Shown here: one piece after another, positions 2,531 to 22,779 of the stretch
Layout: each line of letters opens with the position of its first letter
Numbering within the stretch: the stretch's first letter is position 1
Assembly (NCBI GenBank): GCA_947258845.1
Contig: CAMYJZ010000019.1
Span: forward strand, 20,595-54,419
DNA length: 33,825 nt
Source of the DNA: an uncultured Ectothiorhodospiraceae bacterium
GTDB lineage: Bacteria; Pseudomonadota; Gammaproteobacteria; UBA9214
Direction: 5' to 3'
Made by a program: the position numbers and the translations under genes
The notes under the pieces: generated by a model
Databases searched by the model: none
What the model was told of the DNA's origin: nothing
The model's input: the letters and a program-made list of their open reading frames with translations, nothing else

Positions 2531-3892
2531 TCAGGCGTCACGGGCCAGGTGCCCGCCACGGCTGGCGATCACCTCTCGGTACCAGTGCGCGGAATCCTTC
2601 AGGGTGCGACGCTGGCTGGCATAGTCCACGTGGATCAGCCCGAAGCGTTTGGCATAACCCTCGGCCCATTCGAAGTTATCCATGACCGACCAGAGAAAAT
2701 ACCCCAGTGCCGGCACGCCCTCCGCAATCGCACGGCTGTATTCCTCAAGATATTGTTGTAAAAAATCGATGCGCTGCCGGTCATGGACGCGATCGTCCTC
2801 TAGGGTGTCGTCACTCGCCATGCCGTTTTCGGTGATGACGATCGGCAGCCGGTAGCGCTCGTGCAGGAAGCGCGGGCCCCAGTAAAGCGCCTCGGGCGTG
2901 ACCGGCCAGCCCATGGCCGTCACCGGCAGGTCGGCGTCGGGGACATTCTCGGCCTCCCCTGCCGGCGTCGCACGGATGCACCGACCGGAATAGATATTCG
3001 CACCGAAAAAATCCAGCGGTTGATGGATAATCGCGAGGTCGCCTGACGGCAGTTCGGGCATGTCGGCTGCAAACAGCCGCAGTCCGTCTTCCGGGTAGTG
3101 CCCGAGGATCATGGGATCCGAGAACCAGCTGTTGTTGAAGAAACTTTTCCTGCGGATTGCGAACATCCGGCGGCGGGCGGCGGTGATATCCTCAGGCCGG
3201 CCGGTTGCCGGTATCGAGACCAGGTTCGCCTGTACCGTGCCGATCAGTGGGGCTTTTATGGCCCGCGCACGGATCACCTGCACAGCCCGCCCGTGCGCCA
3301 GCAGGGCGTGATGCGCGGCGCGCAGGACTTCGGCAAGGCCCATCTGCAGACCGGGCGCATGGCTGCCATCCAGGTGCCCCATGCCGATGAAGCACTGCGG
3401 CTCGTTGAGCGTCATCCAGTGGGCGACCCGGTCAGAGAGCCTGTCCACCACGCGGGCGGTGTACTCGGCAAACCAGTCGGCACTGTCCCGGTTCAGCCAG
3501 CCGCCCCGACAGTAGAGTGCGTAGGGATAGTCCCAGTGAAACAGGGTCACCCAGGGCGCTATGCCGCGTTCCAGCAGCGCATCGACCAGCCGGCTGTAGA
3601 AATCCAGCCCCTTGTCGTTGATGACGCCCGTGCCCTCGGGAAGAATGCGTGGCCAGCTGATAGAGAAACGGTAGGCCTGCAGGCCCATCTCGGCCATCAG
3701 GCCGACATCTTCCCGGTATCGGCGGTAATGGTCACAGGCCATCTCACCGGTGTCGCCGTTCTTGATCCTGCCCGGCTGACGGCCCAGCATGTCCCATACG
3801 GACATGCCGCCCCCGTCACGGTATGCCGCCCCCTCTACCTGGTAGCTGGAGGTTGCAGCGCCCCAGATAAAATCTTTCGGGAATGCCATCAA
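2531..3892 (-). CDS. GH1 beta-glucosidase, no signal peptide
   Basis: FPKDFIWGAATSSYQVEGA N-terminus, TLNEPQ acid/base motif, ITENG nucleophile motif, 453 aa. Confidence 0.95.
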   Translation of the reverse strand: MMAFPKDFIWGAATSSYQVEGAAYRDGGGMSVWDMLGRQPGRIKNGDTGEMACDHYRRYREDVGLMAEMGLQAYRFSISWPRILPEGTGVINDKGLDFYSRLVDALLERGIAPWVTLFHWDYPYALYCRGGWLNRDSADWFAEYTARVVDRLSDRVAHWMTLNEPQCFIGMGHLDGSHAPGLQMGLAEVLRAAHHALLAHGRAVQVIRARAIKAPLIGTVQANLVSIPATGRPEDITAARRRMFAIRRKSFFNNSWFSDPMILGHYPEDGLRLFAADMPELPSGDLAIIHQPLDFFGANIYSGRCIRATPAGEAENVPDADLPVTAMGWPVTPEALYWGPRFLHERYRLPIVITENGMASDDTLEDDRVHDRQRIDFLQQYLEEYSRAIAEGVPALGYFLWSVMDNFEWAEGYAKRFGLIHVDYASQRRTLKDSAHWYREVIASRGGHLARDA

Positions 3893-4010: not shown

Positions 4011-5351
4011 CTAGAAAACGTTGACTGACAGGACACCATCGTTGGGACAGTCCACGCCGCAGGGTACATAGGTATACCCCCACTCACCTATCTCACCCAG
4101 TGCGCCAAGGGGGCTTGGAACTGGAAGTCCTTCCAGGCTTGCGTCATCCCAGAAAATGGAGCCCCCACCACCGCCAATGTCGATATGCAGCAACAAGAGC
4201 CTGGCAGTGACTGCATCGGGAGGCGCGGTGCCCTGAACCGACAACTCTGTCCAGTCGGAAGGTGAGAGCCCGCTCCTGGGCGCCAGCAGGATATTCTCCC
4301 CCCCAACTGTGTCAGCGAACACCTCCAGGGCTTCACCGACTTGAACACCAAGATCATCGAGAAATGTCAGTTGCAGAAGCGCAAGATTGTTGAATTCATC
4401 GCCGGCCCAGTTCATGGCGTACACGGATGCGGTATAGGTTTCATGAGGGGTTACCGGATATTCCTGGAAGGCCCCACCATCACCCCCGAACTGCTTGAGG
4501 ACCTGGGTGTCGGTAAGTGCGGTTGGATTCACACTGTTACCGCCGGGTTGATAGAGGTTGCTGGTCGTAAATGCATTGTTGAAACATGTCCAGTCCCTCG
4601 AACAGGCAACATCACCATCCAATGCGTCGGTACCAGGACTGGTCTCCTCAAAACTGTCGTTGCGCATCAGGTTCTCTTCGGTGACTGGCAACAGCAGTGA
4701 ATAACCATTGGGGTAGAAGCTGGGAGTTGAAGAAGCATCGGATGTCGCAAGTTGTCTATGTAAATGATCGCCAACCAGCAGGTTGAGTTGCTGAGAAACA
4801 AATACTTCCGGGAAACCAAATGGACCAAAGAAAGTCACGGACCCAAAATAATTATCCAGGACTGAGCGGTAGGCCTTTACAGCCTGTCGCCGCACGAGCG
4901 GATCGCCAATGCCAATCTGAACCTGTGCCGTCCATAATTCGTGCAATGCACGCGCGGTGTAATACTGATTCTCCCCGGAGCTTCTACGCGCCAGCGCCGT
5001 CGCCCAGAGATAGAAGCGTGCCTTTGCGCCCGTGGGCCCCGGTGGAATCTCCTCCAACAGTTCCAGCTTGCCAATGGGTTCATCAGGATTGTTTTCATCA
5101 AACTCACCGGTCGGAATATTCTGATAGGGATTCTCCTCGTCCAGGAGGACACAGGTCTCCCGGTAAACCCCCGCATCTTCACAACGCAATCCAAGGATCA
5201 GGTCGGTCGGCAGGGTGTAGGAAGTAAAGGGGGTTCCATCGGTACTGTCAGGACCACAGCCAGTAGTAAAGAGCACAACCAGCCCGAGCAGCATGGTACG
5301 GAGTCCTGCAGAGGCGACTGACCCCATTTTGTTTGAATTGGTGATTCTCAT
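4011..5351 (-). CDS. Lipoprotein with uncharacterised N-terminal region and C-terminal CBM-like module
   Basis: Lipobox-like LVVLFTTGC; module NLMRNDSFEE...FGGDGGAFQEYPV...WDDASLEG at about 4131-4673, similar to modules in the GH16 and PEP-CTERM proteins. Confidence 0.7.
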   Translation of the reverse strand: MRITNSNKMGSVASAGLRTMLLGLVVLFTTGCGPDSTDGTPFTSYTLPTDLILGLRCEDAGVYRETCVLLDEENPYQNIPTGEFDENNPDEPIGKLELLEEIPPGPTGAKARFYLWATALARRSSGENQYYTARALHELWTAQVQIGIGDPLVRRQAVKAYRSVLDNYFGSVTFFGPFGFPEVFVSQQLNLLVGDHLHRQLATSDASSTPSFYPNGYSLLLPVTEENLMRNDSFEETSPGTDALDGDVACSRDWTCFNNAFTTSNLYQPGGNSVNPTALTDTQVLKQFGGDGGAFQEYPVTPHETYTASVYAMNWAGDEFNNLALLQLTFLDDLGVQVGEALEVFADTVGGENILLAPRSGLSPSDWTELSVQGTAPPDAVTARLLLLHIDIGGGGGSIFWDDASLEGLPVPSPLGALGEIGEWGYTYVPCGVDCPNDGVLSVNVF

Positions 5352-5379: not shown

Positions 5380-8300
5380 CTACTGGAAGGCCCACTTGAA
5401 ATAGAACATGGTTAAAAAATCATAGCCATTTGCGCCATCCCGATACTCATCGTCCGGCGAGTTCTCGTCCAGCGTCCGGTACAGCGCCCGGATACCGATT
5501 TTGCTGGATTCATCCTCGTCCAGGCGCTGATCGAGCAGCAGCGAATAGTCCAGCTTGTACTGTTCGGGGTAGGTAACATTGAACTGCCGATGAAAATCAT
5601 ACGGTCCCCAGGCGTCTTTCTTGAAGTACCCGGAGAGAATGTGCTTCCGGTTGAAGATGAACTTGGCGTCCGCCTCGTAGAATTCACGCGCGCCCCCGTT
5701 CGGATCTCCGGTCGACTGCTGCTGCCCGGCGACCAGGTTGGTAATCAACTTGAAATCGCGGTGCGTATTGAACACCATCCGGTTCGACACTTTCCAGATA
5801 TCCTCTGCCGGGAGACCCTGGCCAAAGGGTGCATTGAACCCGCCCTCGTCAAAGAAAAACAGGTAGGAATCGGTTGGCGTCGGGTACTCCGTGTAATTGG
5901 CCCCGATATTGAAGGCAAACGCGGCATTTTCACGCCGGTCATTGTCCCAGTGATAAAAGAACGTGGCGGGTGTGGGGTCATAGGTTAAAAAGATCTCGGC
6001 CGACCTGGCCTCCCGGTTGTCCAGCACCGCGAAGGGATCATCTTCCCGGTTGCGCGGGCTGATGCCGGGATCGCCACCAACCACCGGATCAAAGAGCGGG
6101 TTGGCATCCTCCAGGTTGTCGCGATACAGGAAGCGCGGGTAGATCATGAAGTCACCGTAATTCATCATGATACCGGCCTCGTACTCCTGCTTGTTGCCCA
6201 GTGACGAATAGGGAAGGTAGGTGCCCGGTGTGCCCCCGGTCCCGAATTCCCTGAGCTGATCGCCCCCGTCTGCCACCAGGCCGGCATAATGGGCCGCCAG
6301 GTAGAGCTGGGAAAAATGCAGGTTGCCGATGTGCAGGCTGGACGGCTTGTATGTCAGCTGCGCCCTGGCTCCCAGCGTATCCTCGAACTCTATTTCATCG
6401 ATGTAGGTGGTAGTGCCGGTTCTGCGGTCATATTCGTCGTCCTCCTTTTCCGTGCTGGCCATGATACCGCCAACCTCGAGCTTGGTGCTGTCAGTGAGAT
6501 CGGTTTTTGCATAGATGGTTGTCTGGCGTGACTGGCGCTCGGTTGCTTCCGTTGCCGTCGCCGAATCATCGAGCCTGGACACGTCCTCGGAATGCATGAA
6601 GGTATAATCGATGTCGCCAATCTTGTTGCTGTACTTGAGCATCACCAGCGGGTTTGCACCCCAGTAGACCTCGGGTCCGAACAGCAGCTTGAGCCCGTCG
6701 AGTTTTCCCTTGCCGACTATTTCCGCCCCAAAAGGCGCCTTGGCGTTCCAGATGTCCTGGCCATCCAGGTCGGTCGTCTCTCTCAACAGGCCAAAGAAAT
6801 CGCCCTCGTATTTCCAGTGGTAACGTTCTGTATGGTAAAAGGCGCTCAGGTCGAATAAATCACCGGTGTACGTGGCATCGAAATCATAAATCTCAATATT
6901 TTCACGATCCGGGTCAGGCTGATTGAGCTCCCAACCATAGGTGATTTCGAAGTTATCCTTGTCGGCTGCATTCGCAAAAAGATTGACTGTGAATTGCCCT
7001 TCTATTCTATCGTTCGGCTGAAATTCAAAATCCAGGAAGGCCCATTCACCGTCGGTGAACTCGATCGCATCTTCACCATCGATGTCGATCTCATCTTCCG
7101 ACCCTTTCAGCACGAATTCGCCCTCGAGACTACCGCCCGTAAAACTCAACAGCTTCTTGCTCTCGTGCTTGTCATAGCCGTGCTCCCGCTCGCTTTTCAA
7201 CATGCGGACATCGGCCTTGAGTTCCTGGTAATCCATGTTGATATTGCCGATATCCTGGTTTATCGCGGCCTTTTTGTATTTATAGGGATCGATCTTCCAG
7301 ATCTCGGAGAGCACGTCGTAGGCCATCCTCGGTATGGCCTCGTAAACGCCGTCCACGTTGGGCGTACCCAGCCGGGCGATGCCGAACCATTCCTCGTTCA
7401 TGTTGTTCTTGCCTTCAACATGATCGAATTTATAACCGCCGTTTGCCCATGAGGCGTTGTTGTCATGAATGTCGAGATCCTCCTGGTCCTCGACATTGTA
7501 TTTCCACCATTCATCGCGCCACTCGAACACGAAGCCGCCGATCGAGTTGCCCTCCTCATTGTTGCCGTAGCTCTTGTTGTACATCTCCAGCCACTGTTCC
7601 TTGAGGTAAGTGGCCTGGGCCAGCTGGTCTTCCCGGTTCTCCCTCGCATTGAAGGCATCGCTGCCGAATTCCATGAACACCACGGGCAGGTCCAGCTTGT
7701 TTTTAACGTCCTGCCACAGGTTGGAGACGGGATTGATAAAACTCTTGCCCCGGTACGTATTGACACCAAGCAAATCCAGATCCGTGCAGTACTCGGCAAT
7801 CAGGTCGATATACTGGAGGTCGCCATTGACAATGGTGAAGGGGTGATTCCGATCGATACGCTTGCCTGCTGCGATGACCTCGTTGAACAGGCTGTACAGG
7901 TACTTTGCTTTTCCCCTGTGCCGCTCGCCTTCCGGCAGATTCTCGATTTCGGCACTGGACCATTCGAGACCGTAGTTGTTCTCATTGCCAAGCGCGAACA
8001 TCAGCACACCGGGAGTGTTTTTGTATGTCTCAACCAACTCCAGCACGTTTTTCTTCAGGGTTGCCCGGGTCAGTTCATCGGAGTAATCCGTTGTTGCGAC
8101 CCACTTGCCGCCGACACTGAGGCCATACCTTCCCATGAGATCGTGGTCGTTAATGATCGTCATGATGCCATGTTCTCTGTAGACATAGGTTACCCACTTG
8201 GGCGGTATCTTGGAGAAGGTGCGAATGGCATTCACACCCGCCTTCTTCATCAGGCCAAAGTCGTAATCGAGCACCTTTCTGATAAATTCGTCGGACTGAC

Positions 8301-8538
8301 CCCAGAGGTCGTAGTTGAAATTCTCGTTCCTGGGTATGTAGCCCCATACGACACCCTTGACATAGAAATCCTCGCCATTCACCTGCAGCTTCCAGCCATT
8401 TTCGTCCTGGTGCGTGGTGACCACGTCAGCCGCCTGTGCCGGGCTGACGAATGGAACATGAACAACCAGGAGGAAGACAAAAAGTCCGCAGATATTCCTG
8501 ATGCCCTTACAGAATTTCAGACCTGACATGGTGACCAC
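5380..8538 (-). CDS. Exported clan GH-A-like glycosidase fused to a C-terminal outer-membrane beta-barrel-like domain (likely start 8529)
   Basis: Signal peptide (LLVVHVPFVSPAQAA); TIM-barrel-like VNGEDFYVKGV...GVNAIRTF...ALGNENN...FMEFGSDAF...FEWRDEWW; C-terminal ~590 aa rich in alternating amphipathic strands, ending ...FLTMFYFKWAFQ. Confidence 0.8.
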   Translation of the reverse strand: MVTMSGLKFCKGIRNICGLFVFLLVVHVPFVSPAQAADVVTTHQDENGWKLQVNGEDFYVKGVVWGYIPRNENFNYDLWGQSDEFIRKVLDYDFGLMKKAGVNAIRTFSKIPPKWVTYVYREHGIMTIINDHDLMGRYGLSVGGKWVATTDYSDELTRATLKKNVLELVETYKNTPGVLMFALGNENNYGLEWSSAEIENLPEGERHRGKAKYLYSLFNEVIAAGKRIDRNHPFTIVNGDLQYIDLIAEYCTDLDLLGVNTYRGKSFINPVSNLWQDVKNKLDLPVVFMEFGSDAFNARENREDQLAQATYLKEQWLEMYNKSYGNNEEGNSIGGFVFEWRDEWWKYNVEDQEDLDIHDNNASWANGGYKFDHVEGKNNMNEEWFGIARLGTPNVDGVYEAIPRMAYDVLSEIWKIDPYKYKKAAINQDIGNINMDYQELKADVRMLKSEREHGYDKHESKKLLSFTGGSLEGEFVLKGSEDEIDIDGEDAIEFTDGEWAFLDFEFQPNDRIEGQFTVNLFANAADKDNFEITYGWELNQPDPDRENIEIYDFDATYTGDLFDLSAFYHTERYHWKYEGDFFGLLRETTDLDGQDIWNAKAPFGAEIVGKGKLDGLKLLFGPEVYWGANPLVMLKYSNKIGDIDYTFMHSEDVSRLDDSATATEATERQSRQTTIYAKTDLTDSTKLEVGGIMASTEKEDDEYDRRTGTTTYIDEIEFEDTLGARAQLTYKPSSLHIGNLHFSQLYLAAHYAGLVADGGDQLREFGTGGTPGTYLPYSSLGNKQEYEAGIMMNYGDFMIYPRFLYRDNLEDANPLFDPVVGGDPGISPRNREDDPFAVLDNREARSAEIFLTYDPTPATFFYHWDNDRRENAAFAFNIGANYTEYPTPTDSYLFFFDEGGFNAPFGQGLPAEDIWKVSNRMVFNTHRDFKLITNLVAGQQQSTGDPNGGAREFYEADAKFIFNRKHILSGYFKKDAWGPYDFHRQFNVTYPEQYKLDYSLLLDQRLDEDESSKIGIRALYRTLDENSPDDEYRDGANGYDFLTMFYFKWAFQ

Positions 8539-8618: not shown

Positions 8619-10418
8619 CTAGGCATCCCACACAACGTTTTTGACTGCTTCCGGTTCCAGCTGAATCCGCACGGTCTGCAGCGAATTCGCGTCAATACTG
8701 ACATCTGCATACTGCGCCCCGACCTGAAGCAGGTACTGGACCGGTTTCTTCGTGGTATTCAGCACCTGGACAGATAGCAGGCCATCGCGATTGACTGTGG
8801 CACTCGCATGGATGGCATCGTCGTCCAGGCCGTCCAGGTACTTGTCTGCCTGCACGGCCCTGTCACCCGGCCTGATGGTCCGGCTGAACTGCGCAAGGAT
8901 ATAGTAGATCGGCGTGTAATAGACATGCTGCTTCTCCACATCGATCATGATGGGCGCGCCGCAGAAATTCCCCACGTGGTTGGGCCCGCCCCTGCTGTCC
9001 AGCACGATATTCCAGTCGATCCAGCCGGCCATCCAGTGATTCAGGCTCACGATGATGTTTCTTGCATAGCGATGCACCGGCGTGTAAATGGGGTGATCCT
9101 CCACCTTGACGCCCGGCCAGGTGGCGGTATAGGCCCAGTCTGTGGCATTTGGATTCCACCAGAAGGCATCGTTGTCGAACCAGCCACTCTCCTTGTACCG
9201 GATTGGATCGAGAATACCCTGTGGTGCATCCTTGCCCAGGTCATCTATGGTGCCTTCCGTGTGAATGACCGGAAAGTCCGGAAACCTGTCATGCACCCTG
9301 TCCAGTATGTCTTCAAATACCTTGAAGGTACTTTCGTACCAGTGCACCGCCACGCCAAAAACATATTTTGCGGTTTCCGGGTCGCCCAGGATGGTATCCG
9401 TCCACTCCTCCAGTCCATCCCTGTTCTGGTCGTAGATCAGCAACCTGACAGCGCCGTTGTCGCTGGCATGCAATTTCGGTCCCAGATGGTTTTTTATGAA
9501 TTCATTCTGCGACGCCGGCGTGAAATGCATACTCTCCCACTGGCCATTATTTCCATGCGGTTCGTTGACCGGTGTAAGCCCCCAGATATCGATGCCCTCA
9601 TCCCGGTAGGCCTGGAGATATTTTGTAATGTAATCGGCGTAGACCGGCAAATATTCCTTTTTGAGTTTTCCCCCTGTGCCCTGCCAATTGTTTTCATCAG
9701 ATCCGGGGATGTACCAGTCCGCGATATCCTTCATCCAGGAGGGCGCCGTCCAGGCCGAGGCGATTAGATTAAGGTCTTTCTCCTGTTGCGCTTTTTTAAT
9801 CGACAACGCCTCCTCGATCATGGGCATCAGGTCATAGGAGGAATCGCGTATTCCCGGGTATTCCTCGGCTGGAAATCCGTCTTTATCGGGCGCAATACTG
9901 AAATGCTCCAGTTTCACGTCACCCTTCACGTCGTCATAGGAGTATCTCCCCTTCACGGAGAAATCCGTTGCACCGATAGGGGTTCTCGCCAGGGAGAAAT
10001 TGGCGCCTGCTTCACCGTAGATGTTGTGCATCACCTGCAGCCTTTTCTCCCTGTCCAGATGCGCCAGCACGAAGGCGGACGATTCGGTAAACGAGGTGCC
10101 GATACCGACAATTTCCTGCTTGACGATGTCGGGATGTACGACAATCCGGTTGCCCTGCGCCTGCCCCTTCGTGAATGTCAGGTTCTTCTTGTGTGCGATC
10201 CTGTCGCCTTCCTCCGAGGTCAGCAGCACCTCCATGGAAGTGGCGATGTTATAGTTTATGCCCTGTGTATCTGGCACTTCTGCATGACCGGAGTCCTCGG
10301 AAGAACACGCACTCACCAGCAGTGAAAGCATCACGCCCTTGTACAGATTATTTAGTCTCATTATCCAGCTACCCTGCACCGGCACATGTGAGTGCTGCGA
10401 CCTGTTAGCAATGCACAT
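8619..10418 (-). CDS. GH30 glycosidase, lipoprotein (beta-1,6-glucanase/glucosidase-like); likely start 10361
   Basis: MRLNNLYKGVMLSLLVSACSS lipobox; GH30 motifs GIGTSFTESSAF, ARTPIGATDFS, SAWTAPSWMKD, TPVNEPHG, HTEGT. Confidence 0.9.
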   Translation of the reverse strand: MCIANRSQHSHVPVQGSWIMRLNNLYKGVMLSLLVSACSSEDSGHAEVPDTQGINYNIATSMEVLLTSEEGDRIAHKKNLTFTKGQAQGNRIVVHPDIVKQEIVGIGTSFTESSAFVLAHLDREKRLQVMHNIYGEAGANFSLARTPIGATDFSVKGRYSYDDVKGDVKLEHFSIAPDKDGFPAEEYPGIRDSSYDLMPMIEEALSIKKAQQEKDLNLIASAWTAPSWMKDIADWYIPGSDENNWQGTGGKLKKEYLPVYADYITKYLQAYRDEGIDIWGLTPVNEPHGNNGQWESMHFTPASQNEFIKNHLGPKLHASDNGAVRLLIYDQNRDGLEEWTDTILGDPETAKYVFGVAVHWYESTFKVFEDILDRVHDRFPDFPVIHTEGTIDDLGKDAPQGILDPIRYKESGWFDNDAFWWNPNATDWAYTATWPGVKVEDHPIYTPVHRYARNIIVSLNHWMAGWIDWNIVLDSRGGPNHVGNFCGAPIMIDVEKQHVYYTPIYYILAQFSRTIRPGDRAVQADKYLDGLDDDAIHASATVNRDGLLSVQVLNTTKKPVQYLLQVGAQYADVSIDANSLQTVRIQLEPEAVKNVVWDA

Positions 10419-10521: not shown

Positions 10522-13308
10522 CTACGGTACTGCCTCGTAGACCTTGACGTAGTCAACCAGCATGGTCTGGGGCCAGGTCTCGGTCCCGTCCGGCGGCTGG
10601 TCGGCACTACCCAGCGTCCCGCCCATCGCGACATTGAGTATCATGAAGAAGTCCCGCGTAAATTCTTCCATGGTGTCCGGATCGATGACCCGGGAAAACA
10701 CCTGGCGGCCGTCGGCATAAAATACGATTCTCTCAGGATCCCACACGGCCTCGAAAATATGGAAATCATCGCCCAGCGATTCTTCGAAAACCAGGCTGTC
10801 GCCGACAAAGACCCGTCCTTCCGGGAAGGAGCATGCCTCCGGGAACTGTATGGTTTCATCGCACCAGTGCAGGGTGGAGTGCGTGGTCATGGGATTCGAG
10901 CCGAAGGTGTTCCACATCTCCATGATGTCGATCTCGCCTGACCTTGGCCAGCCGACCTCGGGGAAGTTGGATCCCAGCATCCAGAATGCCGGCCAGGCAC
11001 CCTTGCCAACCGGTGGCTTGATTCGCGCCTCGATTTTTCCGTAGCGGATGGTATTGAACGTCTCCAGCGTATTGATCCTGGCCGAAGTCACCGTTCCGTC
11101 GCGAACACCGGCAACACATTCTTCGGGTGGTGCATCGACATTGGTGAAGACGATATTGTCGTAGTAAACACCGGTATTATCATACTCGGTTGTCACGGTG
11201 TTGAAGCCGAACTGCAGTAGCTGGCCTTCGAGCAGGGGATCAGAAAGATCCAGGCTTATGGAGAAGGAGTTCCAATCCACATTACTGATAGCGGTCATGT
11301 CGGCCCGGATATCGTTGGTCGTTGCAAAACCGGCACCGGGATCCAGGGTCTTGATGAACGCACTTGCCTCGGTAACCGGCTGGACTGCATCGGCAATTCC
11401 ACCTTCAAACGGCGACTTGGCATCAAAACTCAACGTGTAGGTAGTACCGATATCATCGGCTGTGATGGTTATCTCCTGGAACACGCTGGTGTTTATGGTA
11501 CAGCCACTGGCACCACAATTGCCGCCGCTGGTTTGATCGCCATTGTTGTAGTCACTGTAGATGTTCAGGTGCTGCTCGCCCTGGTCGGGGCCACCTTCAC
11601 CGGTTGCGATCGCCGAAAAACCGGGCCCGCCGTTGGGCGCGGGGAACGGACCATAGGGGTACTTGAATATGCCGGTGCCGACATCGCCGTCCCACACGTC
11701 GGCGAAAATAACGTAACCATCTTGATTCAATGCCTCGGGGTCGGTGGCACCCAGGGCCTCGAAGTCCTGGGAATAGGTCTCTCCGTCTGCCCCGGGACCC
11801 GGGTCGGATGACACACACAGGGCGGATATCACCAGGTTGCCGTTTTCCACGCGGACGTTTTCCGGGTCATCGGTATACAGCTGCCACTCGTTGTTGCCCC
11901 AGCCACCGTCTCCGTACCCCAGATCGTAGCCCCAGTTGCCGGGCGAGGGAGGCCCATCGACATCGAATTCATCCGACCATATCAGCGAGAATTCCAGTTC
12001 CGGTTCCGGCTCAGGCGGAGGGCTGTCCTCGGTAGGGGTCGAGGTCAAAATGATGTCGTCCCAGTAAAGAGCGCCAGTTTCGGGGGTTCCGTCAATCAGG
12101 ACATGCAACATCAATACCTGGGCCGACTGTGTACCCGTGGGTGCAGTAGCGGAAAGGGATATCTCGGTCCAGTCGGTGACCTCGGCCCCGTCCTGAGGCA
12201 GCAGCTGGTACGGCTGGTTGCCAAGTGAATCAGCGAAGGTCTCGATGGCCGCACCGACCTGATTGCCGCCGCCCAGCCGTCCTCCCGGCGCATCCCAGAA
12301 GGTCAATTGCACAATTGCCAGATTGTTGAAGGGATCCGGCTCCCAGCTCATTGCATGGGCAGTCAGTTCAACCATGTCGCCTTCGAGTGCCTCGATAACA
12401 TTTTCGGCACCGCCATCCACACCGAACTGGATCAGGGACTGGGTGCCATCAGCGTCATGCGAAACCGGTGCGGAGCTGGGACCCAGCGCGGAAGTGACGA
12501 AGTTGCAGTTGAACGTGTTCCAGGCGCCAAGACTGTTACCACCACAATTACCCACATTGCCACTAACCGCGTCAGGTACGCCTGGCGGTTCAAAACCTGC
12601 GTCCGTCAGCGTGTCCCTGGGCGGGACAGACGTGGGGGGCGGGAATTCAGGATAACCGGGGAAGGACCAGCTGAAGGTATTACTACCCTCGTAAAAAACA
12701 TAGGTCTGGTAGAAGTTGTCCAGTGCTGTCTGGGTACTGACAACCGCATTACCCGGGGCAATGTTCTCAATAACGGTCACAACGTCTGTACTGAACGCCG
12801 GACTCGAGAAATCCAGGCTCAGGCCGGCGGCAGCGGCCCGGGTGTCGTCACTAACGGAAATGCCGTTGGAATGATCACCGTCTACATCGATGCTTTGCAG
12901 AAAGACCAGCAAATTGGTCGCCGCCTGGTCTGTGGGACCATCATCATCACTGCTCCCGGTCAACTCAACCGGTGTAATGATCGGGGCCCCTGGCGCCGAA
13001 CCCAGCTGAATGCCCCCGATAGAAAATGTAACCGATTCGCTCGGCAGGTACTGGAACTCACCCTGGCCATTGGTGATCCCTGACCGGCTCGGCGTTTCAT
13101 AATCGACTCCGTCGACCGGTGAATTGACCAGCCTGCCCGTTTCTGGCGGCGGCGGATTACCCTGGACCGGTTCCGGTCCGCTGCCACCACCGAAGCAGGC
13201 CAACAGGGGCAAGACGAGCGAGATAACCGTGAGTGGCTGTAACAGGCGGAGTAAATATTTATCCATAATGAAAAGCTTCACGTTATTGTCAGAATCACGA
13301 CGCATCAT
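10522..13308 (-). CDS. GH16 beta-glucanase (laminarinase-like) lipoprotein with upstream CBM-like module and a large insertion in the catalytic domain; likely start 13266
   Basis: MDKYLLRLLQPLTVISLVLPLLACFGGG lipobox; FSLIWSDEFD...NWGYDLGYGDGGWGNNEWQLYTD; catalytic GEIDIMEMWN (ExDxxE); C-terminal MLVDYVKVYE. Confidence 0.92.
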   Translation of the reverse strand: MMRRDSDNNVKLFIMDKYLLRLLQPLTVISLVLPLLACFGGGSGPEPVQGNPPPPETGRLVNSPVDGVDYETPSRSGITNGQGEFQYLPSESVTFSIGGIQLGSAPGAPIITPVELTGSSDDDGPTDQAATNLLVFLQSIDVDGDHSNGISVSDDTRAAAAGLSLDFSSPAFSTDVVTVIENIAPGNAVVSTQTALDNFYQTYVFYEGSNTFSWSFPGYPEFPPPTSVPPRDTLTDAGFEPPGVPDAVSGNVGNCGGNSLGAWNTFNCNFVTSALGPSSAPVSHDADGTQSLIQFGVDGGAENVIEALEGDMVELTAHAMSWEPDPFNNLAIVQLTFWDAPGGRLGGGNQVGAAIETFADSLGNQPYQLLPQDGAEVTDWTEISLSATAPTGTQSAQVLMLHVLIDGTPETGALYWDDIILTSTPTEDSPPPEPEPELEFSLIWSDEFDVDGPPSPGNWGYDLGYGDGGWGNNEWQLYTDDPENVRVENGNLVISALCVSSDPGPGADGETYSQDFEALGATDPEALNQDGYVIFADVWDGDVGTGIFKYPYGPFPAPNGGPGFSAIATGEGGPDQGEQHLNIYSDYNNGDQTSGGNCGASGCTINTSVFQEITITADDIGTTYTLSFDAKSPFEGGIADAVQPVTEASAFIKTLDPGAGFATTNDIRADMTAISNVDWNSFSISLDLSDPLLEGQLLQFGFNTVTTEYDNTGVYYDNIVFTNVDAPPEECVAGVRDGTVTSARINTLETFNTIRYGKIEARIKPPVGKGAWPAFWMLGSNFPEVGWPRSGEIDIMEMWNTFGSNPMTTHSTLHWCDETIQFPEACSFPEGRVFVGDSLVFEESLGDDFHIFEAVWDPERIVFYADGRQVFSRVIDPDTMEEFTRDFFMILNVAMGGTLGSADQPPDGTETWPQTMLVDYVKVYEAVP

Positions 13309-13621: not shown

Positions 13622-14719
13622 ATGGAAAAATCAGAACCCAAGCATATCGTTGCAGAAAAAAAAATCAGGGAATTCATCAAGCACTGCAAAGCCGATGAAA
13701 AGATCCCGGGTGAGCGGGTTTATGCACAGCAATTGGGTATTTCCTATATGACCGCCCGAAAAGCCGTCGAGAGTCTTGTCGCAAAAGGCCTGCTCTACAA
13801 GATACCCAAAAAAGGTACGTACGTTTCCGGACAGAGAACCACGCGAAGAAAAACAAAAAACATAGGTTATTTCCTGGATTCCAGCATCAAACAGGGCCTG
13901 TCCAGCCCCTACTATGCATTGATATTCGATGCCATAGAAAAAGAAGCAGCGAAAAAAGGATACTCGTTAATATATTTTTCCGACGCAAGCGAATCCGGCA
14001 TTAAAAGCACGATGGAAAAGCTGGATGGAGTTATTGTCAGCTGTTTCCCGCGCATTGAAGAACTGTTGCACAAGTTGAAAGCGCATGCGCCGGTAATTTG
14101 CATCGACAACGGTTCTGCGGATGAATCCATACCCTCGGTAACGATCGATAACAAGAACGCTGTTAGCGAAGCAATTAGTCACCTGATTTCACTGGGACAT
14201 CACCGGATTGGCTTCATTACCGGTCTTGATGACTCGAAAGTCGGAAGAGACAGATACAACGGCTACTTGAGCGCACTGAGCGACCATGGCTTGAATGTTG
14301 AGACAGACCTTGTTTACAAGGGTGATTACACATTCAAAACGGGTTCGGATGCTGCTGATTATTTCCTTTCGCTTGACAGGCTGCCGACTGCAATCATGTG
14401 CGCAAACGACACCATGGCGATTGGCGCGATCAAGGAAATCAAGAGCCTTGGCCATAACGTACCCGACGACATCAGTATTATGGGTTTTGATGATATTGCC
14501 GTTGCATCACAAATGTCTCCCGCCTTGACTACGGTGGCCGCGCCTGTCAAGGAACTCGCAAAACAGTGCGTGATCATGCTCAGCAAGATAATCGATGGCA
14601 CTGAGCCCGATAACATGCACATATCCATCCCGGCCCGGTTGGTACTCAGAAACACGTGTGCGCACAACAGAACAAGCGCCGATAAAGCAAATGAATCCGG
14701 AAATACTCTAGCGGGATAA
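13622..14719 (+). CDS. Transcriptional regulator: GntR-type winged HTH plus LacI/periplasmic-binding-protein-like sensor domain
   Basis: N-terminus KIPGERVYAQQLGISYMTARKAVESLVAKGLLYKIPKKGTYVS (GntR wHTH); C-terminus ...HHRIGFITG...PTAIMCANDTMAIGAIKEIKSLGHNVPDDISIMGFDDIAVASQMSPALTTV (LacI/PBP1). Confidence 0.93.
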   Translation: MEKSEPKHIVAEKKIREFIKHCKADEKIPGERVYAQQLGISYMTARKAVESLVAKGLLYKIPKKGTYVSGQRTTRRKTKNIGYFLDSSIKQGLSSPYYALIFDAIEKEAAKKGYSLIYFSDASESGIKSTMEKLDGVIVSCFPRIEELLHKLKAHAPVICIDNGSADESIPSVTIDNKNAVSEAISHLISLGHHRIGFITGLDDSKVGRDRYNGYLSALSDHGLNVETDLVYKGDYTFKTGSDAADYFLSLDRLPTAIMCANDTMAIGAIKEIKSLGHNVPDDISIMGFDDIAVASQMSPALTTVAAPVKELAKQCVIMLSKIIDGTEPDNMHISIPARLVLRNTCAHNRTSADKANESGNTLAG

Positions 14720-15019: not shown

Positions 15020-16267
15020 ATGCCAACAAGCAATGCTCGATATATTTCAAGGCTGACCCGGGATACACTGGCGCTCATACTCGCCGGCGGACGTGGCACC
15101 CGGCTGCATGAATTAACATCACGGCGCGCGAAACCTGCTGTCTATTTTGGCGGCAAGTTCCGCATCATCGATTTCCCTCTATCCAATTGCGTCAACTCCG
15201 GAATCAGGCGAATCAGCGTACTGACGCAGTACAAGGCGCATTCGCTGATCCGGCACCTGGTCAAGGGCTGGGGCTCCTTTCATAGCGAACTGGATGAATT
15301 CGTGGAAGTCCTTCCTGCCTCTCAACGCACCGATAGCGGATGGTATGCAGGCACGGCTGATGCCATCTTCCAGAATCTGGACATTATCAGGGAATGGCGC
15401 CCACAGCACTTACTGGTACTCTCGGGCGATCACGTATACAAAATGGATTATGGTCCTTTGCTTGCATGGCATTGCGAGCATAAGGCAGATATGACGATTT
15501 CATGCCTGGAGGTGTCACGGGAAGAGGCAAGAAACTTCGGCGTCATAGGCACTGACAGCGACAACAGGATTATCTCCTTCAAGGAAAAACCGTCTGCACC
15601 ACGCCTGTTACCGGGATCTGATGATCGCGCACTTGTCTCGATGGGGAATTACGTATTCAACACGGAATTTCTTTTCGATCAACTGAAACTGGATGCAGCT
15701 GATCAGCACTCAAGCCATGACTTCAGCAAAGACATCATTCCATCCATTATAGATGAAGCAGGGGTATACGCCTGCCCGTTTCGGGACGAAGAAACAGGCA
15801 TACAGCCCTACTGGCAGGACGTGGGGACGCTGGACGCCTTCTGGAAAGCAAACATGGGCCTGCTCGACGACACGCCTAAACTCGACCTGTACGATAAAAG
15901 GTGGCCAATTCTTACCCACCAGGGACAATTCCCGGCTGCCCGTTTCGTATGTGAAGACAGCAGCCATCACCTCGCGGTCCTGGACTCAATCGTCTCCGGT
16001 GGCTGCATTGTATCCGGGCCATCACTGTCGCATTCCGTATTATCTCCCAATGTCAGGATTGGATCCCGCGCGAGCATAGAAGAATCCATCATATTTCCTG
16101 AAGTCGTTATCGGGGAAGATTGCCGCATTAATCGCGCCATTATCGACAGGGATTGTCAGATACCTGCAGGAACAGTAATCGGAGAAGACCACAAAGCTGA
16201 TGCACATCGCTTTCGCGTTACATCGAATGACGTTGTGCTGGTTACTCGCGAAATGCTTGCGTCGTGA
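15020..16267 (+). CDS. glgC: Glucose-1-phosphate adenylyltransferase (ADP-glucose pyrophosphorylase)
   Basis: [68 protein letters not shown]-terminal left-handed beta-helix repeats. Confidence 0.96.
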
Positions 16268-16381
16268 GTGCTGAGCGTATTTCATACAACCTGGAGTTCT
16301 GCCTTTGCCACAAATAATCGGCTGGAGCGACTGAATAGCAAATGTAGCATCCGTTTTGCCCTCATAAAGAGCAGAGAAAAC

Positions 16382-19300
16382 ATGGATACTCCCATTATCA
16401 ACAACGAAACTGCACACGGTAAATTCACGTCATTGTTCGGCGAACGCTTTTACGCGATACATAACGTGAATAATATAGCGCCTTTTTTTATCAGCGTCGT
16501 ATCGAATTCCGATCACTGGTTATTCATCTCCTCGACAGGCGGTTTGACGGCGGGCCGAATATCGCCCGAGACGGCGCTGTTTCCATACATAACGGTTGAC
16601 AAGATCCACGAAAGCACCCCGCATACCGGCAGCAAAACCCTGTTAAGTACGGTTATCCATGGACAGAGGCATGAGTGGGAGCCGTTTAACAAGGAACATG
16701 ACGGCCGCTTTGTAACCAGCCGCAGCCTCTATAAAAACATCCTGGGTAACAAGCTGTGTTTCGAAGAAGTAAACCATGACCTTGATCTGGCATTTCGTTA
16801 TTGCTGGGTTACCAGCGACAACTTCGGATTTGTACGGCAATGCGAACTCGAAAATCTTGGTAACGAGAACACAAGCGTCGAAATCGTAGACGGACTGCAA
16901 AACATCCTGCCTGCCGGCACGCCTCGCTACGCACAAACAAACGTCAGCAACCTCGTGGATGCCTACAAGTGGTCGGAGCTGGACGAAAAAACAGGTCTGG
17001 CATTTTTCACTCTCAGCTCCGGCATCACCGATCGCGCCGAGCCCTGCGAGTCTCTCAAGGCAACGACTGTATTTTGTCTTGGCCTGAGTGGTCACAAAGT
17101 GCTGCTCTCCTCGACTCAACTGGGGAAGTTCCGCAGCGGCGCGCCTATGGCACGGGAGGTTCACAAGCGCGGCATCAGGGGAGCTTACCTGGTCAATGCA
17201 TCCCTCGAAATGGAACCGCAGGCATCCCGGCAGTGGCGGGTAGTCGCCAACACCGAGCAGAGCCAGGCACACGCGGTAAGGCTGCAGAAAATGCTCGCTG
17301 ATCCGGATGCGCTGACCGGCGAGATATCCCGGTCAGTGGACAATGATTCGGACGAGCTGGCCCGTATCATGGCACGCGGAGACGCTTTCCAGGTCACCGC
17401 CGAAGAAAATGTATCGGCACACCATTATGCCAACGTGCTGTTCAATATCCTTCGCGGAGGCATCTTCGACAATCAGTACCAGGTATCGTCACTGGATTTG
17501 CGCAAGACCATCCAGGCATTCAACCACCAGGTATATCAGCGCCATACAGGACTATTCGATAGCTTACCCGCGAATCTGGACTACGCCGAATTATTAGCAT
17601 CCATCAGGCAGCAGGACGACCCGCAGCTGGAGCGCCTCGTTTTCGAGTACCTGCCCATTACCTTTGGTCGCCGGCACGGCGATCCCAGCCGGCCCTGGAA
17701 CCAGTTTTCAATCAAGATCAAAGATGAACGCGGCAATCACCTGCTCTCTTATGAGGGTAACTGGCGGGATATTTTCCAGAACTGGGAGGCCCTGGCCTTC
17801 AGCTATCCTGAATTTATCGAAACCATGATTGCGAAGTTCGTCAATGCCTCGACGGCGGATGGCTACAATCCTTATCGGATTACCAATGAAGGCATTGACT
17901 GGGAGGTCGAGGATCCCGATGACCCATGGAGTTATATCGGCTACTGGGGTGATCACCAGATTATCTACCTCCTGAAATTGCTGGAGCTCTCAAGCCAGTT
18001 CCATCCGCAGCGTCTATCTATCTTGCTGCACAAGCCTATTTTCAGCTATGCGAACGTTCCCTACAAAATCAAACCATTCGATGCCTTGTTGGCGAATGCC
18101 AGGAGTACCGTGGAGTTTGATCGGGAACTGGCTGAGCGCATCGCTCAACGAGTGGATTACCAGGGCGCCGATGCCAAACTGATAGAGGACGCCGATGGCG
18201 AGGTGTACCAGGTAAACCTCCTCGAGAAGTTGCTGGTGGCGCTGTTGTGCAAACTTGGCAACCTCGTTATTGATGGAGGCATCTGGCTGAATACCCAGCG
18301 CCCGGAGTGGAATGATGCCAACAACGCGCTGGTTGGACAGGGGCTTTCCATGGTGACCCTGTACTACATGCGCCGTTATATCGTATTCCTGCAAGGTTTA
18401 CTGGCGGATGAATCGGGTTCGATCTGCCTGTCCCGGGAAGTGGACCTGTGGCTGACGGAAACCGCCGCGGCATTGAGCAAGGTTCGTCCGCGACTGCAGG
18501 ATGGGCCGGTTAGCGAGAGGCTGAGGTACCAGTTACTGGTCGAGCTTGGACAGGCAGCCTCCCGTTACCGACAGACCGTCTACGAGCAAGGCACATTCAC
18601 GGGCAAAACACCCCAGCCACTGGACCAGGTGAGAACCTTGCTGACTGATGCACTGGCCGTGGTCGATCACAGCATCCGGATTAACGTCCGCGAAGACGGC
18701 CTGTACCACGCCTATAACCTGCTGCACATCAAGCGTGAAGCAGTCGAAATCGACACCTTGTATCCGATGCTCGAAGGCCAGGTAGCCGTTCTCAGTTCAG
18801 GTGCCCTGCCACCCGCCCAAGTGATCGAAATACTGGAGACACTTTTCGCCAGTGATATATATCGCCCCGACCAGGAAACCTTCATGTTATACCCGGATCG
18901 CCGCTTGCCCGGCTTCATGGAGAAGAACCGGATACCGGCCTCTCAGCTGGAATCGATACCGGTCCTGGTGCGCATGCTTGAAAAGCGAGACGATCGCATC
19001 GTGGTACGCGATGCAGACGGCTGCTACCGCTTCAGTGCAGAGTTTCACAATGCGGATGATCTCAACACCCTGCTGGACACCCTGGTGCAATCATACGGTG
19101 ACGAGCTCGAGGACGCGCGCCAGGCCCTGCTATCGCTCTATGAGAAGGTGTTCAATCACAGTGCGTTTACAGGCCGATCCGGCGGGATGTTCGGTTTTGA
19201 GGGACTGGGCTGCATCTACTGGCACATGGTATCCAAGCTGCTGCTGGCAGTGCAGGAGAACTTCTTCGACGCTCAGACGCAGGGCGCTGGTAAAGACACC

Positions 19301-19873
19301 TGCCGAAGCCTGGGACGGCTCTATTACCGCGTTCGCAAGGGGATCGGTTTCAACAAGTCTCCCGTGGAATATGGCGCTTTTCCGACAGACCCCTATTCCC
19401 ACACGCCCAAACACGCCGGTGCCCAGCAACCCGGCATGACTGGCCAGGTCAAGGAAGAAATACTGACGCGGTTTGGTGAGCTGGGCGTACGGGTCAGCGG
19501 CGGTGCAGTTCATTTCGAACCGGGCCTGCTGCGAGTGCGCGAGTTCACGACCCACCCCGAAACCTTCCGCTTTCTGGACGTTGATGGACAATGGCAGGAC
19601 CTGGCTGTACCGGAGTCAGGCCTGGCATTTACCTGGTGCCAGGTGCCGATTATTTATCGACTGGATGACTCTGCCAAGCCGACGCTGACCATTCACCAGG
19701 ATGACCGCAGCCTGCAGACCCTTGAGGAACTTGCCCTGCCCCCCGCTTCAAGCAAGGAACTCTTTATGCGCAGCGGCAGAATCCGCCTGATCGAGCTGGT
19801 TTTGGGAAGCAGCCAGCTATTTTCCGACCCTCCGACCAGCAACAGCACAGGCAAGAGCCAGCATCATGAATGA
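16382..19873 (+). CDS. Large carbohydrate phosphorylase-like protein (GH94 superfamily; probable GH149/GH161 beta-1,3-glucan phosphorylase); track ORF begins at 16268, preferred start 16382
   Basis: MDTPIINNETAHGKFTSLFGERFYAI...; GNWRDIFQNWEAL and SYIGYWGDHQIIYLLKLLE resemble the (alpha/alpha)6 catalytic region of GH94-type phosphorylases; ~1163 aa; beta-glucan locus context. Confidence 0.75.
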   Translation: MDTPIINNETAHGKFTSLFGERFYAIHNVNNIAPFFISVVSNSDHWLFISSTGGLTAGRISPETALFPYITVDKIHESTPHTGSKTLLSTVIHGQRHEWEPFNKEHDGRFVTSRSLYKNILGNKLCFEEVNHDLDLAFRYCWVTSDNFGFVRQCELENLGNENTSVEIVDGLQNILPAGTPRYAQTNVSNLVDAYKWSELDEKTGLAFFTLSSGITDRAEPCESLKATTVFCLGLSGHKVLLSSTQLGKFRSGAPMAREVHKRGIRGAYLVNASLEMEPQASRQWRVVANTEQSQAHAVRLQKMLADPDALTGEISRSVDNDSDELARIMARGDAFQVTAEENVSAHHYANVLFNILRGGIFDNQYQVSSLDLRKTIQAFNHQVYQRHTGLFDSLPANLDYAELLASIRQQDDPQLERLVFEYLPITFGRRHGDPSRPWNQFSIKIKDERGNHLLSYEGNWRDIFQNWEALAFSYPEFIETMIAKFVNASTADGYNPYRITNEGIDWEVEDPDDPWSYIGYWGDHQIIYLLKLLELSSQFHPQRLSILLHKPIFSYANVPYKIKPFDALLANARSTVEFDRELAERIAQRVDYQGADAKLIEDADGEVYQVNLLEKLLVALLCKLGNLVIDGGIWLNTQRPEWNDANNALVGQGLSMVTLYYMRRYIVFLQGLLADESGSICLSREVDLWLTETAAALSKVRPRLQDGPVSERLRYQLLVELGQAASRYRQTVYEQGTFTGKTPQPLDQVRTLLTDALAVVDHSIRINVREDGLYHAYNLLHIKREAVEIDTLYPMLEGQVAVLSSGALPPAQVIEILETLFASDIYRPDQETFMLYPDRRLPGFMEKNRIPASQLESIPVLVRMLEKRDDRIVVRDADGCYRFSAEFHNADDLNTLLDTLVQSYGDELEDARQALLSLYEKVFNHSAFTGRSGGMFGFEGLGCIYWHMVSKLLLAVQENFFDAQTQGAGKDTCRSLGRLYYRVRKGIGFNKSPVEYGAFPTDPYSHTPKHAGAQQPGMTGQVKEEILTRFGELGVRVSGGAVHFEPGLLRVREFTTHPETFRFLDVDGQWQDLAVPESGLAFTWCQVPIIYRLDDSAKPTLTIHQDDRSLQTLEELALPPASSKELFMRSGRIRLIELVLGSSQLFSDPPTSNSTGKSQHHE

Positions 19874-21239
19874 TACGCATCTGAAATTCAGGGAGAAGCT
19901 GGGTTATGGCCTGGGTGACACGGCATCGAATTTCTTTTTCCAGACATTCAACATCTTTCTCCTTTACTACTACACCGATGTATTCGGCATTTCGGCCGCC
20001 GCGGTGGGTACGCTGTTCTTCGTGTCAAAGCTGTGGGATGCCTTCAACGACCCATTGATGGGCATAATCTCCGACCGCACCCGGTCACGTTTTGGAAAGT
20101 TCAGGCCCTATTTACTGTGGGTTGCCGTCCCGTACGGCTTGATGGGTTACCTCATGTTCGCCAACCCGGACCTTGGCGAGTCCGGAAAACTGGTTTATGC
20201 CTGGGTAACCTACACCCTGATGATGATGATATACACAGCGATCAATGTCCCCTACTCGGCGCTCATGGGTGTAATGACGCCCTCATCGCGGGAACGGACC
20301 GTTCTCTCGAGCTATCGGTTTGTCTGCGCGTTTGGAGGCGGGCTGCTGATTTCGATGCTGGTGCGGCCTTTAATCAATTATTTTGGTGCCGGTGACGAGG
20401 CGAAGGGTTTCAGTACCACGATGGCCCTGTTCGCTATCCTGTCGGTCGCCCTGTTCTGGTATACATTTTCAACGACCAGGGAAAGGGTAAAAACACCTGA
20501 TGATCATAAATCGAACCTGAAGCAGGACCTCAAATTCCTGGTTTCGAACCGCCCATGGATTGTGCTGTTTTTTGCAGCAATCTTCACACTGGCCAACGTC
20601 GCGGTAAAAAATGCGGTAACAGTACACTTCTTCAAATACTACGTTGGTGATGACGGTTCTTCAGTATTTCTATTCATGGATCGCACCACGCTTTTCCTGT
20701 CCGCCGGCATGCTGGCGATGATTCTTGGTGTTGCAAGCACCAAGTTTTTCATCCAGCGATTTGAAAAGAAATCCCTGATGATCTGGCTGAGCCTGCTCAA
20801 TGCCGCGTCAATGGCGATCATCTTCATGATTCCGCCCGACCAGTATTGGACCATGATGGCAGTAAATATCGTGGGAATGTACCTGGTAGGACCGACACCA
20901 GCCCTGGTCTGGTCAATGTATGCAGATGTCGCGGACTATGGTGAATGGAAGTACGGTCGACGCACAACCGGGCTCGTATTCTCCGCAGCACAATTTGCCC
21001 AGAAGTTCGGCCTGACTATTGGTGCCGGCCTTTCCGGCTGGTTACTGGCGCTTGTTGGATTTGTCGCGAATGTCGAGCAAACGGAAACGTCTCTTCTTGG
21101 AATACGCGTGATGTTCACGCTTCTTCCCGCCTGCTTTGCAACGGCGAACGCCTTCGTCCTCATTTTTTACAGGCTGAGTGACCGCCAGGTTGAGCAGATC
21201 GAAATAGAGCTGGGAAAACGCAATGCGGGCCTGGCCTAG
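19866..21239 (+). CDS. GPH-family (MelB-like) MFS sugar transporter
   Basis: KLGYGLGDTASNFFFQTFNIFLLYYYTDVFGI...LWDAFNDPLMGIISDRTRSRFGKFRPYLLW; start overlaps the phosphorylase stop (ATGAATGA). Confidence 0.92.
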   Translation: MNDTHLKFREKLGYGLGDTASNFFFQTFNIFLLYYYTDVFGISAAAVGTLFFVSKLWDAFNDPLMGIISDRTRSRFGKFRPYLLWVAVPYGLMGYLMFANPDLGESGKLVYAWVTYTLMMMIYTAINVPYSALMGVMTPSSRERTVLSSYRFVCAFGGGLLISMLVRPLINYFGAGDEAKGFSTTMALFAILSVALFWYTFSTTRERVKTPDDHKSNLKQDLKFLVSNRPWIVLFFAAIFTLANVAVKNAVTVHFFKYYVGDDGSSVFLFMDRTTLFLSAGMLAMILGVASTKFFIQRFEKKSLMIWLSLLNAASMAIIFMIPPDQYWTMMAVNIVGMYLVGPTPALVWSMYADVADYGEWKYGRRTTGLVFSAAQFAQKFGLTIGAGLSGWLLALVGFVANVEQTETSLLGIRVMFTLLPACFATANAFVLIFYRLSDRQVEQIEIELGKRNAGLA

Positions 21240-21339: not shown

Positions 21340-22779
21340 ATGATCCAGAAACACTACGCCACTCCGCCTGAGGACAGAATCCCGCTCAGCCAGAAAATCG
21401 CATTTGGCGCAGGAATGCTTGGCAACCAGATGTTTCCCGCCGCCCTGGCCATTTTCATGGTTGTTCTCGTGAAGGGTTTGGGCATGGACCCGATGCTATG
21501 GGGCATACTGTTTTTCGTTCCCCGCATGTTCGATGCCATCACGGACCCGATCATGGGCTTCATTTCGGATAATACAAACTCGCCGTGGGGACGCCGTCGA
21601 CCTTATATATTCATCGGTGCACTTATTGCCGGCGTGTTTTACATGATTATGTGGCAGGTCTACCCTGAGAACAGCCAGACCTACAATTTCACCTATTTCC
21701 TGCTGACATCCATCGTCTTCTACCTCGGGCTCACCATATTCGCCACACCCTATGTGGCGATGGGTTACGAGATGAGCAATGATTTTCATGAACGGACCAG
21801 ATTGATGGGCGTGGCACAATGGATCGGTCAGTGGGCGTGGGTTATCGTACCCTGGTTTTGGGTGATAATTTACGATCCAGATATATTCGAAACTCCCGCT
21901 GCAGGCGCACGACAGCTGTCTATATGGGTAGGTTTGTTTTGCCTGTGCCTGGCTATCGTACCAGCGCTCTTCTGCAAGACCCAGCCGGTTGACCCCGATC
22001 ACCTGCTAAAACTCACACGAGTTAATTTTCGAGAAAACCTGGGCAAGTTCTTCAGGGGTTTCGTTGACACTTTTAAAAACAAGTCATTTCTAAAATTATG
22101 CATCGCCACCTTTTTCGTGTTCAATGCCTTCAATACCATTGCCGGGTTTTCCTTCTTCATCATTGTTTACTATATGAATGCAGGTGATGCAGCTGTAGCA
22201 GGTACCTGGCCCGCCTGGTTTGGCTCGATCAGTGCGCTTTGCACCACTTTCCTGGTCATTCCTGTCATTACCTTCATTTCGCAGAGACTCGGTAAACGGA
22301 ATACCTTCCTTTTGTCACAGGCCATATCACTGGTGGGTTATTCCATGTTCTGGTGGTGTTTCCAGCCCGATAACCCTCTTATGATGTTTGTGCCACTACC
22401 CTTGTTTGCCTTTGGCATCGGTAGCCTGTTCACCCTGATGATGTCCATGACTGCGGATGTCTGCGATCTCGATGAGCTTAACACCGGATTTCGGCGTGAA
22501 GGTACCTTTGCCGCAATATACTGGTGGATGGTGAAATTCGGATTTGCAATTGCCGGCTTGTTGAGCGGGACGATACTTACACTTGTAGGCTTCGACCAGA
22601 ACATCGCCGTACAGACGCCTGAAACACTGACCGGACTCCGACTTGCCTATATCCTGGTACCGATAACCGGTACCGTTATCGCTATGGCAATAATGACGCG
22701 CTATGACATCACCGAGCAAAGGGCTCATGAGATTCGCCTGGAACTGGAAGCCAGGCGAGGTGAAAGAACCCTCACATAG
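21340..22779 (+). CDS. Second MFS/GPH-family transporter
   Basis: KIAFGAGMLGNQMFPAALAIFMVVLVKGLG...RMFDAITDPIMGFISDNTNSPWGRRRPYIFIGALIAGVF; 12-TM pattern. Confidence 0.9.
   Translation: MIQKHYATPPEDRIPLSQKIAFGAGMLGNQMFPAALAIFMVVLVKGLGMDPMLWGILFFVPRMFDAITDPIMGFISDNTNSPWGRRRPYIFIGALIAGVFYMIMWQVYPENSQTYNFTYFLLTSIVFYLGLTIFATPYVAMGYEMSNDFHERTRLMGVAQWIGQWAWVIVPWFWVIIYDPDIFETPAAGARQLSIWVGLFCLCLAIVPALFCKTQPVDPDHLLKLTRVNFRENLGKFFRGFVDTFKNKSFLKLCIATFFVFNAFNTIAGFSFFIIVYYMNAGDAAVAGTWPAWFGSISALCTTFLVIPVITFISQRLGKRNTFLLSQAISLVGYSMFWWCFQPDNPLMMFVPLPLFAFGIGSLFTLMMSMTADVCDLDELNTGFRREGTFAAIYWWMVKFGFAIAGLLSGTILTLVGFDQNIAVQTPETLTGLRLAYILVPITGTVIAMAIMTRYDITEQRAHEIRLELEARRGERTLT

Follow-up and report, generated by a model that had tools for sequence, protein, structure and literature searches.

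Uptake of glycans through the outer membrane is seen mainly as TonB-driven or as passage through simple porins, and the channel and the cutting are normally the jobs of separate proteins. Gene clusters built around the phosphorylase GH149 are known as Type I, with an ABC transporter, and Type II, with a TonB receptor (PMC5827456). The locus described here lies in a stretch of 33,825 nucleotides (the window) from an uncultured Ectothiorhodospiraceae bacterium, and shares GH149, GH16, GH17, a pfam13347 MFS transporter and regulators with the Type II clusters of Gammaproteobacteria (PMC5827456). Those clusters have a TonB-dependent receptor, whereas none is seen in the window, and a fusion of a glycoside hydrolase (GH) to a barrel occupies the outer-membrane slot. 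Laminarin loci have also been reported from Woeseiaceae, seven of them with SusC (PMC12175321). Neither of these two papers mentions a porin.

Parts of the fusion recall proteins of other function. In the sucrose porin ScrY and in FapF an outer-membrane barrel is likewise preceded by an N-terminal coiled coil, shown to be periplasmic in FapF and described as a similar case in ScrY (PMC5557850), but these proteins have fewer strands and no enzyme. In the cytochrome-porin Cyc2 (PMC8406198) a redox domain, predicted periplasmic like the enzyme here, is N-terminal to the porin; unlike the fusion, Cyc2 is a cytochrome with 16 strands and serves iron oxidation, not glycans. The sets AlgE/AlgK, PgaA/PgaB and PelB/PelA also combine a barrel, a lipoprotein or TPR part and a hydrolase, but they act in export together with a synthase, their hydrolase is separate, and no TPR is seen in the lipoprotein of the present locus. 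No description of a GH-porin fusion was found in the literature searched, a search that most subscription journals lay beyond.

Architecture of the fusion protein

The fusion gene has a GTG start codon. An ATG at codon 4 could be the true start; it does not vary among the three homologues that were aligned first. The signal peptide ends at ...SPAQA/AD. At full length the gene is single-copy in its genome; a second, weak match there is a separate ORF of ~639 aa just upstream of the window. Pfam recognised only Glyco_hydro_2_C (PF02836; aa 50-325, E 1.3e-9). In a full-length AlphaFold2 model (39 homologues; pLDDT 78) a TIM barrel at 60-413 leads into a helical linker and then into a long series of beta-strands that reaches the C-terminus; the pTM of 0.64 is too low to place the enzyme relative to the pore. 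This computed architecture is kept at 50-65% identity across several phyla, so the fusion is the product of neither chance nor mis-assembly. A signal peptide, a TIM barrel and a C-terminal outer-membrane barrel in one ORF, as the initial annotation had read the gene, were thus borne out.

Table 1. Features of the window, with coordinates in the window, strand and basis or remark
Feature	Coordinates	Strand	Basis or remark
GH1 beta-glucosidase	2531..3892	-	above NCBIfam cutoff
Partner lipoprotein (lipobox TTGC), with extra CBM-like insert at about aa 220-420	4011..5351	-	directly downstream of fusion
GH-barrel fusion protein: signal peptide, GH-A domain, coiled coil, outer-membrane barrel	5380..8538	-	1052 aa
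Outer-membrane beta-barrel, about aa 465-1051, about 24 strands	5383..7146	-	barrel-only model, Foldseek, strand statistics
Coiled-coil linker, aa 426-447, heptad I426 I430 I433 Y437 L440 V444 L447	7198..7263	-	helix in model
Catalytic clan GH-A domain (predicted), about aa 38-413	7300..8427	-	PF02836, TIM strands in model, invariance, weak GH158 similarity
GH30, closest NCBIfam model endo-1,6-beta-glucanase	8619..10418	-	below cutoff
GH16 protein with CBM-like modules	10522..13308	-	
GntR/LacI-type sugar-responsive regulator	13622..14719	+	
GlgC-like nucleotidyltransferase	15020..16267	+	
GH149 beta-1,3-oligoglucan phosphorylase	16268..19873	+	1066 bits to 6hq6
MFS_2 sugar transporter	19866..21239	+	
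Second MFS_2 sugar transporter	21340..22779	+	
GH17	22960..23862	+	
GH17	23855..24823	+	

The eight TIM strands of the model span 60-65, 104-107, 126-130, 178-183, 234-236, 257-261, 286-291 and 332-337. E186 (GNENN) comes after strand 4 and E290 (FMEFGSD) is on strand 7, and each is unchanged in 39/39 homologues. The two motifs had been picked out as candidate acid/base and nucleophile, and this computed geometry agrees: E186 is the predicted acid/base and E290 the predicted nucleophile, as expected for clan GH-A. By sequence and by fold the best solved relatives of the domain are the GH158 endo-beta-1,3-glucanases (BuGH158, PDB 6pal; GH158(Pro), PDB 9oro), with which it shares the clan GH-A fold, the glutamate positions and the beta-1,3-glucan context. 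The similarity to GH158 is very weak (E 5.6e-5 with a single sequence and 2.7e-10 with a profile, at partial coverage), whereas a true GH158 from one of the homologous clusters reaches 1.4e-102, and characterised members are not matched over the catalytic domain. Unlike BuGH158, which has a C-terminal Ig-like domain (PMC7157763), the fusion continues after the TIM barrel with a helix, a coiled coil and the outer-membrane barrel. The match to PF02836 is clear (38 bits, cutoff 21) and recurs in 31/39 homologues. The sandwich domains that precede the TIM barrel in GH2 are absent here, the TIM barrel starting ~20 residues past the signal peptide. One homologue of the fusion protein gave a match to GH72. 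Judged from sequence, the catalytic domain counts as a distant sister of GH158 and no clear member of it, and CAZy may already have a name for it; the domain, whose family had been considered unassignable and perhaps new, is no isolated unknown.

Modelled on its own (41 homologues), the C-terminal region forms a barrel with pLDDT 82 and pTM 0.79. Its strands number about 24, a manual reading of DSSP output in which short elements were joined or set aside, with an error of up to two, and its C-terminal end is YDFLTMFYFKWAF(Q). All of the 50 best Foldseek matches listed from the PDB are transmembrane outer-membrane proteins, among them AlgE, TonB-dependent receptors, chitoporin, OmpF, Occ channels, ScrY and LptD, with low TM-scores (0.17-0.38 by query length). 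The barrel strands alternate in hydrophobicity with a score of 1.27, compared with 0.73 (sd 0.11) on average after shuffling, and 0/5000 shuffles came up to the observed value. The C-terminal residue is F in 37/39 homologues; the window protein ends ...KWAFQ (window 5380-5385), one residue past that terminal F. Amphipathic strands and the C-terminal aromatic signal of an outer-membrane beta-barrel are both present in this predicted barrel. Pfam models of TonB receptors, and any other Pfam model outside the GH domain, gave no match. The models were also inspected for a soluble sandwich or propeller at the C-terminus and for a missing TIM barrel or misplaced glutamates at strands 4 and 7; neither was found. 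The first proposal, that the protein's own barrel anchors the enzyme in the outer membrane, is supported by the models, by Foldseek and by the deep conservation.

Position of the enzyme relative to the pore

In the barrel the loops average 20.8 residues after odd strands and 6.1 after even ones (permutation p = 3e-4, on strands assigned by hand from the model), and from this pattern the rule commonly applied to outer-membrane proteins predicts both termini to be periplasmic. Since the GH domain is attached to strand 1 of an even-stranded barrel with such termini, it too would be periplasmic, and most likely hangs under the pore. Between the two lies the heptad of aa 426-447, whose core positions are hydrophobic in 89% of homologues against 17% elsewhere, which suggests an oligomeric coiled coil.

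Relatives, gene neighbourhood and partner lipoprotein

One scan of genome contigs yielded 68 loci with relatives of the fusion, mostly from Gammaproteobacteria (many Woeseiaceae, some Thiotrichales), Cloacimonadota and Geobacteraceae, with one Spirochaete and one Delongbacterium. Gammaproteobacteria, Cloacimonadota, Geobacteraceae, Spirochaetes and Bacteroidota all have homologues of full length, and plasmid records add Bacteroides finegoldii and Persicobacter (37-39% identity over 94% of the query). Within the order to which the window belongs, only one other genome gives a strong match, and within the class 4/369 genomes match at E <= 1e-10, the window's own counted. The fusion is sparse but widespread. 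A pattern search of viral contigs gave no match, and unfused barrels sought in 299 genomes of the phylum turned up only fused forms. In the gut bacterium Bacteroides finegoldii the homologue (L083 11867-15001) has GH16 and BglX as neighbours, and the surrounding annotation names no SusC/SusD; its own annotation reads only 'glycoside hydrolase family 2 TIM barrel-domain containing protein'.

The window combines clustered beta-glucan GHs, transporters and a regulator, and is a beta-1,3(1,6)-glucan (laminarin-type) utilisation locus, the substrate being presumed. Neighbour clusters were counted over 69 loci, many of them on short contigs: GH149 was present in 34, GH30 in 20, the regulator in 43 and MFS_2 in 30. 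Representative homologous loci also encode GH3, CBM9, GH158 and regulators. The GlgC-like gene directly precedes GH149, a similar gene is present in locus L066, and its product might convert glucose-1-phosphate to a nucleotide sugar. On the window's contig no TonB-dependent-receptor barrel was found; the genome, a 94% complete draft, has three, and several other host genomes have 1-4. Three clusters (L012, L075 and L076) encode a TonB-receptor-like protein, recognised by eye from its N-terminal sequence, so the barrel need not be the sole route.

An uncharacterised lipoprotein is encoded directly downstream of the fusion in 53/60 assessable loci (47 by ORF search and 6 by tblastn), the 60 being those with enough sequence, with duplicates of one contig counted once. 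This computed linkage, like that to beta-glucan enzymes, is conserved. The exceptions are three Thiotrichales-type loci, two Spirochaete loci and two Bacteroidota records, in which a different lipoprotein follows the fusion gene. A TPR or other domain was sought in the lipoprotein with Pfam and nothing convincing emerged. The insert of the window's copy resembles modules of the neighbouring GH16 protein (36% identity) and, weakly, a PEP-CTERM-like small protein at window 1342-2019; it is missing from three other copies first aligned.

The distances of the GH domain, the barrel and the lipoprotein are correlated (r 0.78-0.84). One Spirochaete genome has a barrel that lacks GH, bears a signal peptide of its own and is followed by the lipoprotein; in two others a distant barrel adjoins a separate GH lipoprotein with 24-27% identity to the N-terminal domain; a further one carries the lipoprotein domain as an N-terminal fusion to a barrel (L115 6684-9050). 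Several more predicted secreted enzymes of GH-A appearance lie near the last of these. Four loci (L075, L076, L078 and L079) keep the GH domain and linker and have lost both barrel and lipoprotein, with no other copy of either elsewhere in their genomes. Because of these splits, re-fusions and joint loss, the sequences argue that the three parts cooperate, with barrel and lipoprotein as a pair. In L075 and L076 the TonB-receptor-like N-terminus lies further along in the cluster, and it is possible that this protein replaces the lost barrel.

A proposed hydrolase-porin for beta-glucan and the alternatives

The reading we favour, with a probability of about two in three, is that of a hydrolase-porin of a laminarin-type locus, in which the GH-A domain cuts glucan oligosaccharides under its own pore. 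The secreted GH16 and GH30 would shorten the polymer, and oligosaccharides would cross the wide C-terminal barrel, with which the lipoprotein would work. Tethered below the pore by the coiled coil, the GH-A domain would cut them in the periplasm to sizes that MFS_2 accepts, and phosphorolysis by the cytosolic GH149 would release glucose-1-phosphate. Here the periplasmic placement, oligomeric state, substrate, direction of import and kinetic coupling of cutting to entry are what we infer. The reading is favoured because of the fold, the catalytic residues and the loop pattern; because a coiled coil lies beside strand 1, as in FapF; because GH149, GH16, GH17, GH30 and MFS_2 surround the gene, with GH158, GH3 and regulators in homologous loci; because of the lipoprotein linkage, the split and re-fused forms, the joint loss and the correlated distances; and because TonB-receptor barrels, not found on the contig, are few in the window's genome and in several other host genomes. 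Counted against it are the four loci that keep the enzyme without the barrel, the TonB-receptor-like proteins of some clusters, and the fact that some hosts are kin to chemolithoautotrophs rather than to classic glycan degraders. Of the initial proposals, the glycan-processing porin is the favoured one, and a putative coupling of hydrolysis to glycan entry is favoured by the gene context. A bolder version, to which we give somewhat less than even odds, is a TonB-independent importer of glycans in several phyla, in which hydrolysis directly under a wide pore destroys the substrate as it arrives and so pulls it inward; such an importer would have a lipoprotein partner of its own and fill the slot usually taken by SusC or a TonB receptor.

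The fusion could instead serve co-localisation only, with an import pore whose enzyme neither drives nor gates entry. The genomes that retain the enzyme alone, and the Spirochaete with the barrel alone, speak for this; the fusion is nevertheless kept across phyla, and 65 barrel residues are invariant in 39 homologues, seemingly more than a generic pore needs, and we consider an uncoupled enzyme unlikely. It is more doubtful still that the GH domain stands outside the cell, by an autotransporter-like or reversed topology, with the barrel a mere anchor. Autotransporter passengers are N-terminal to their barrel, as this enzyme is, and loci of this kind often encode surface glucanases. Against this, about 24 strands are modelled where an autotransporter domain has 12, no autotransporter is among the 50 Foldseek matches listed, a coiled coil sits at the junction of enzyme and barrel, and the Spirochaete lipoprotein domain occupies the same N-terminal position. 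The self-tethered surface enzyme raised at the outset is therefore improbable, the N-terminal domain joining strand 1 and the loops pointing to periplasmic termini. Least probable is secretion of a self-made beta-glucan, for although AlgE is among the best fold matches listed and a hydrolase, lipoprotein and barrel resemble exopolysaccharide export sets, the annotated conserved neighbour families are degradative, uptake or regulatory, with no glycosyltransferase synthase among them, and the lipoprotein has no TPR match.

If the hydrolase-porin reading is true, this conserved enzyme-pore fusion and the lipoprotein linked to it would add a third arrangement to those by which beta-1,3-glucans such as laminarin are taken up. 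Its users would be poorly studied sediment bacteria, and it is also encoded in a human gut Bacteroides, where the annotation hides the channel; genome surveys for SusC and TonB receptors would miss the fusion.
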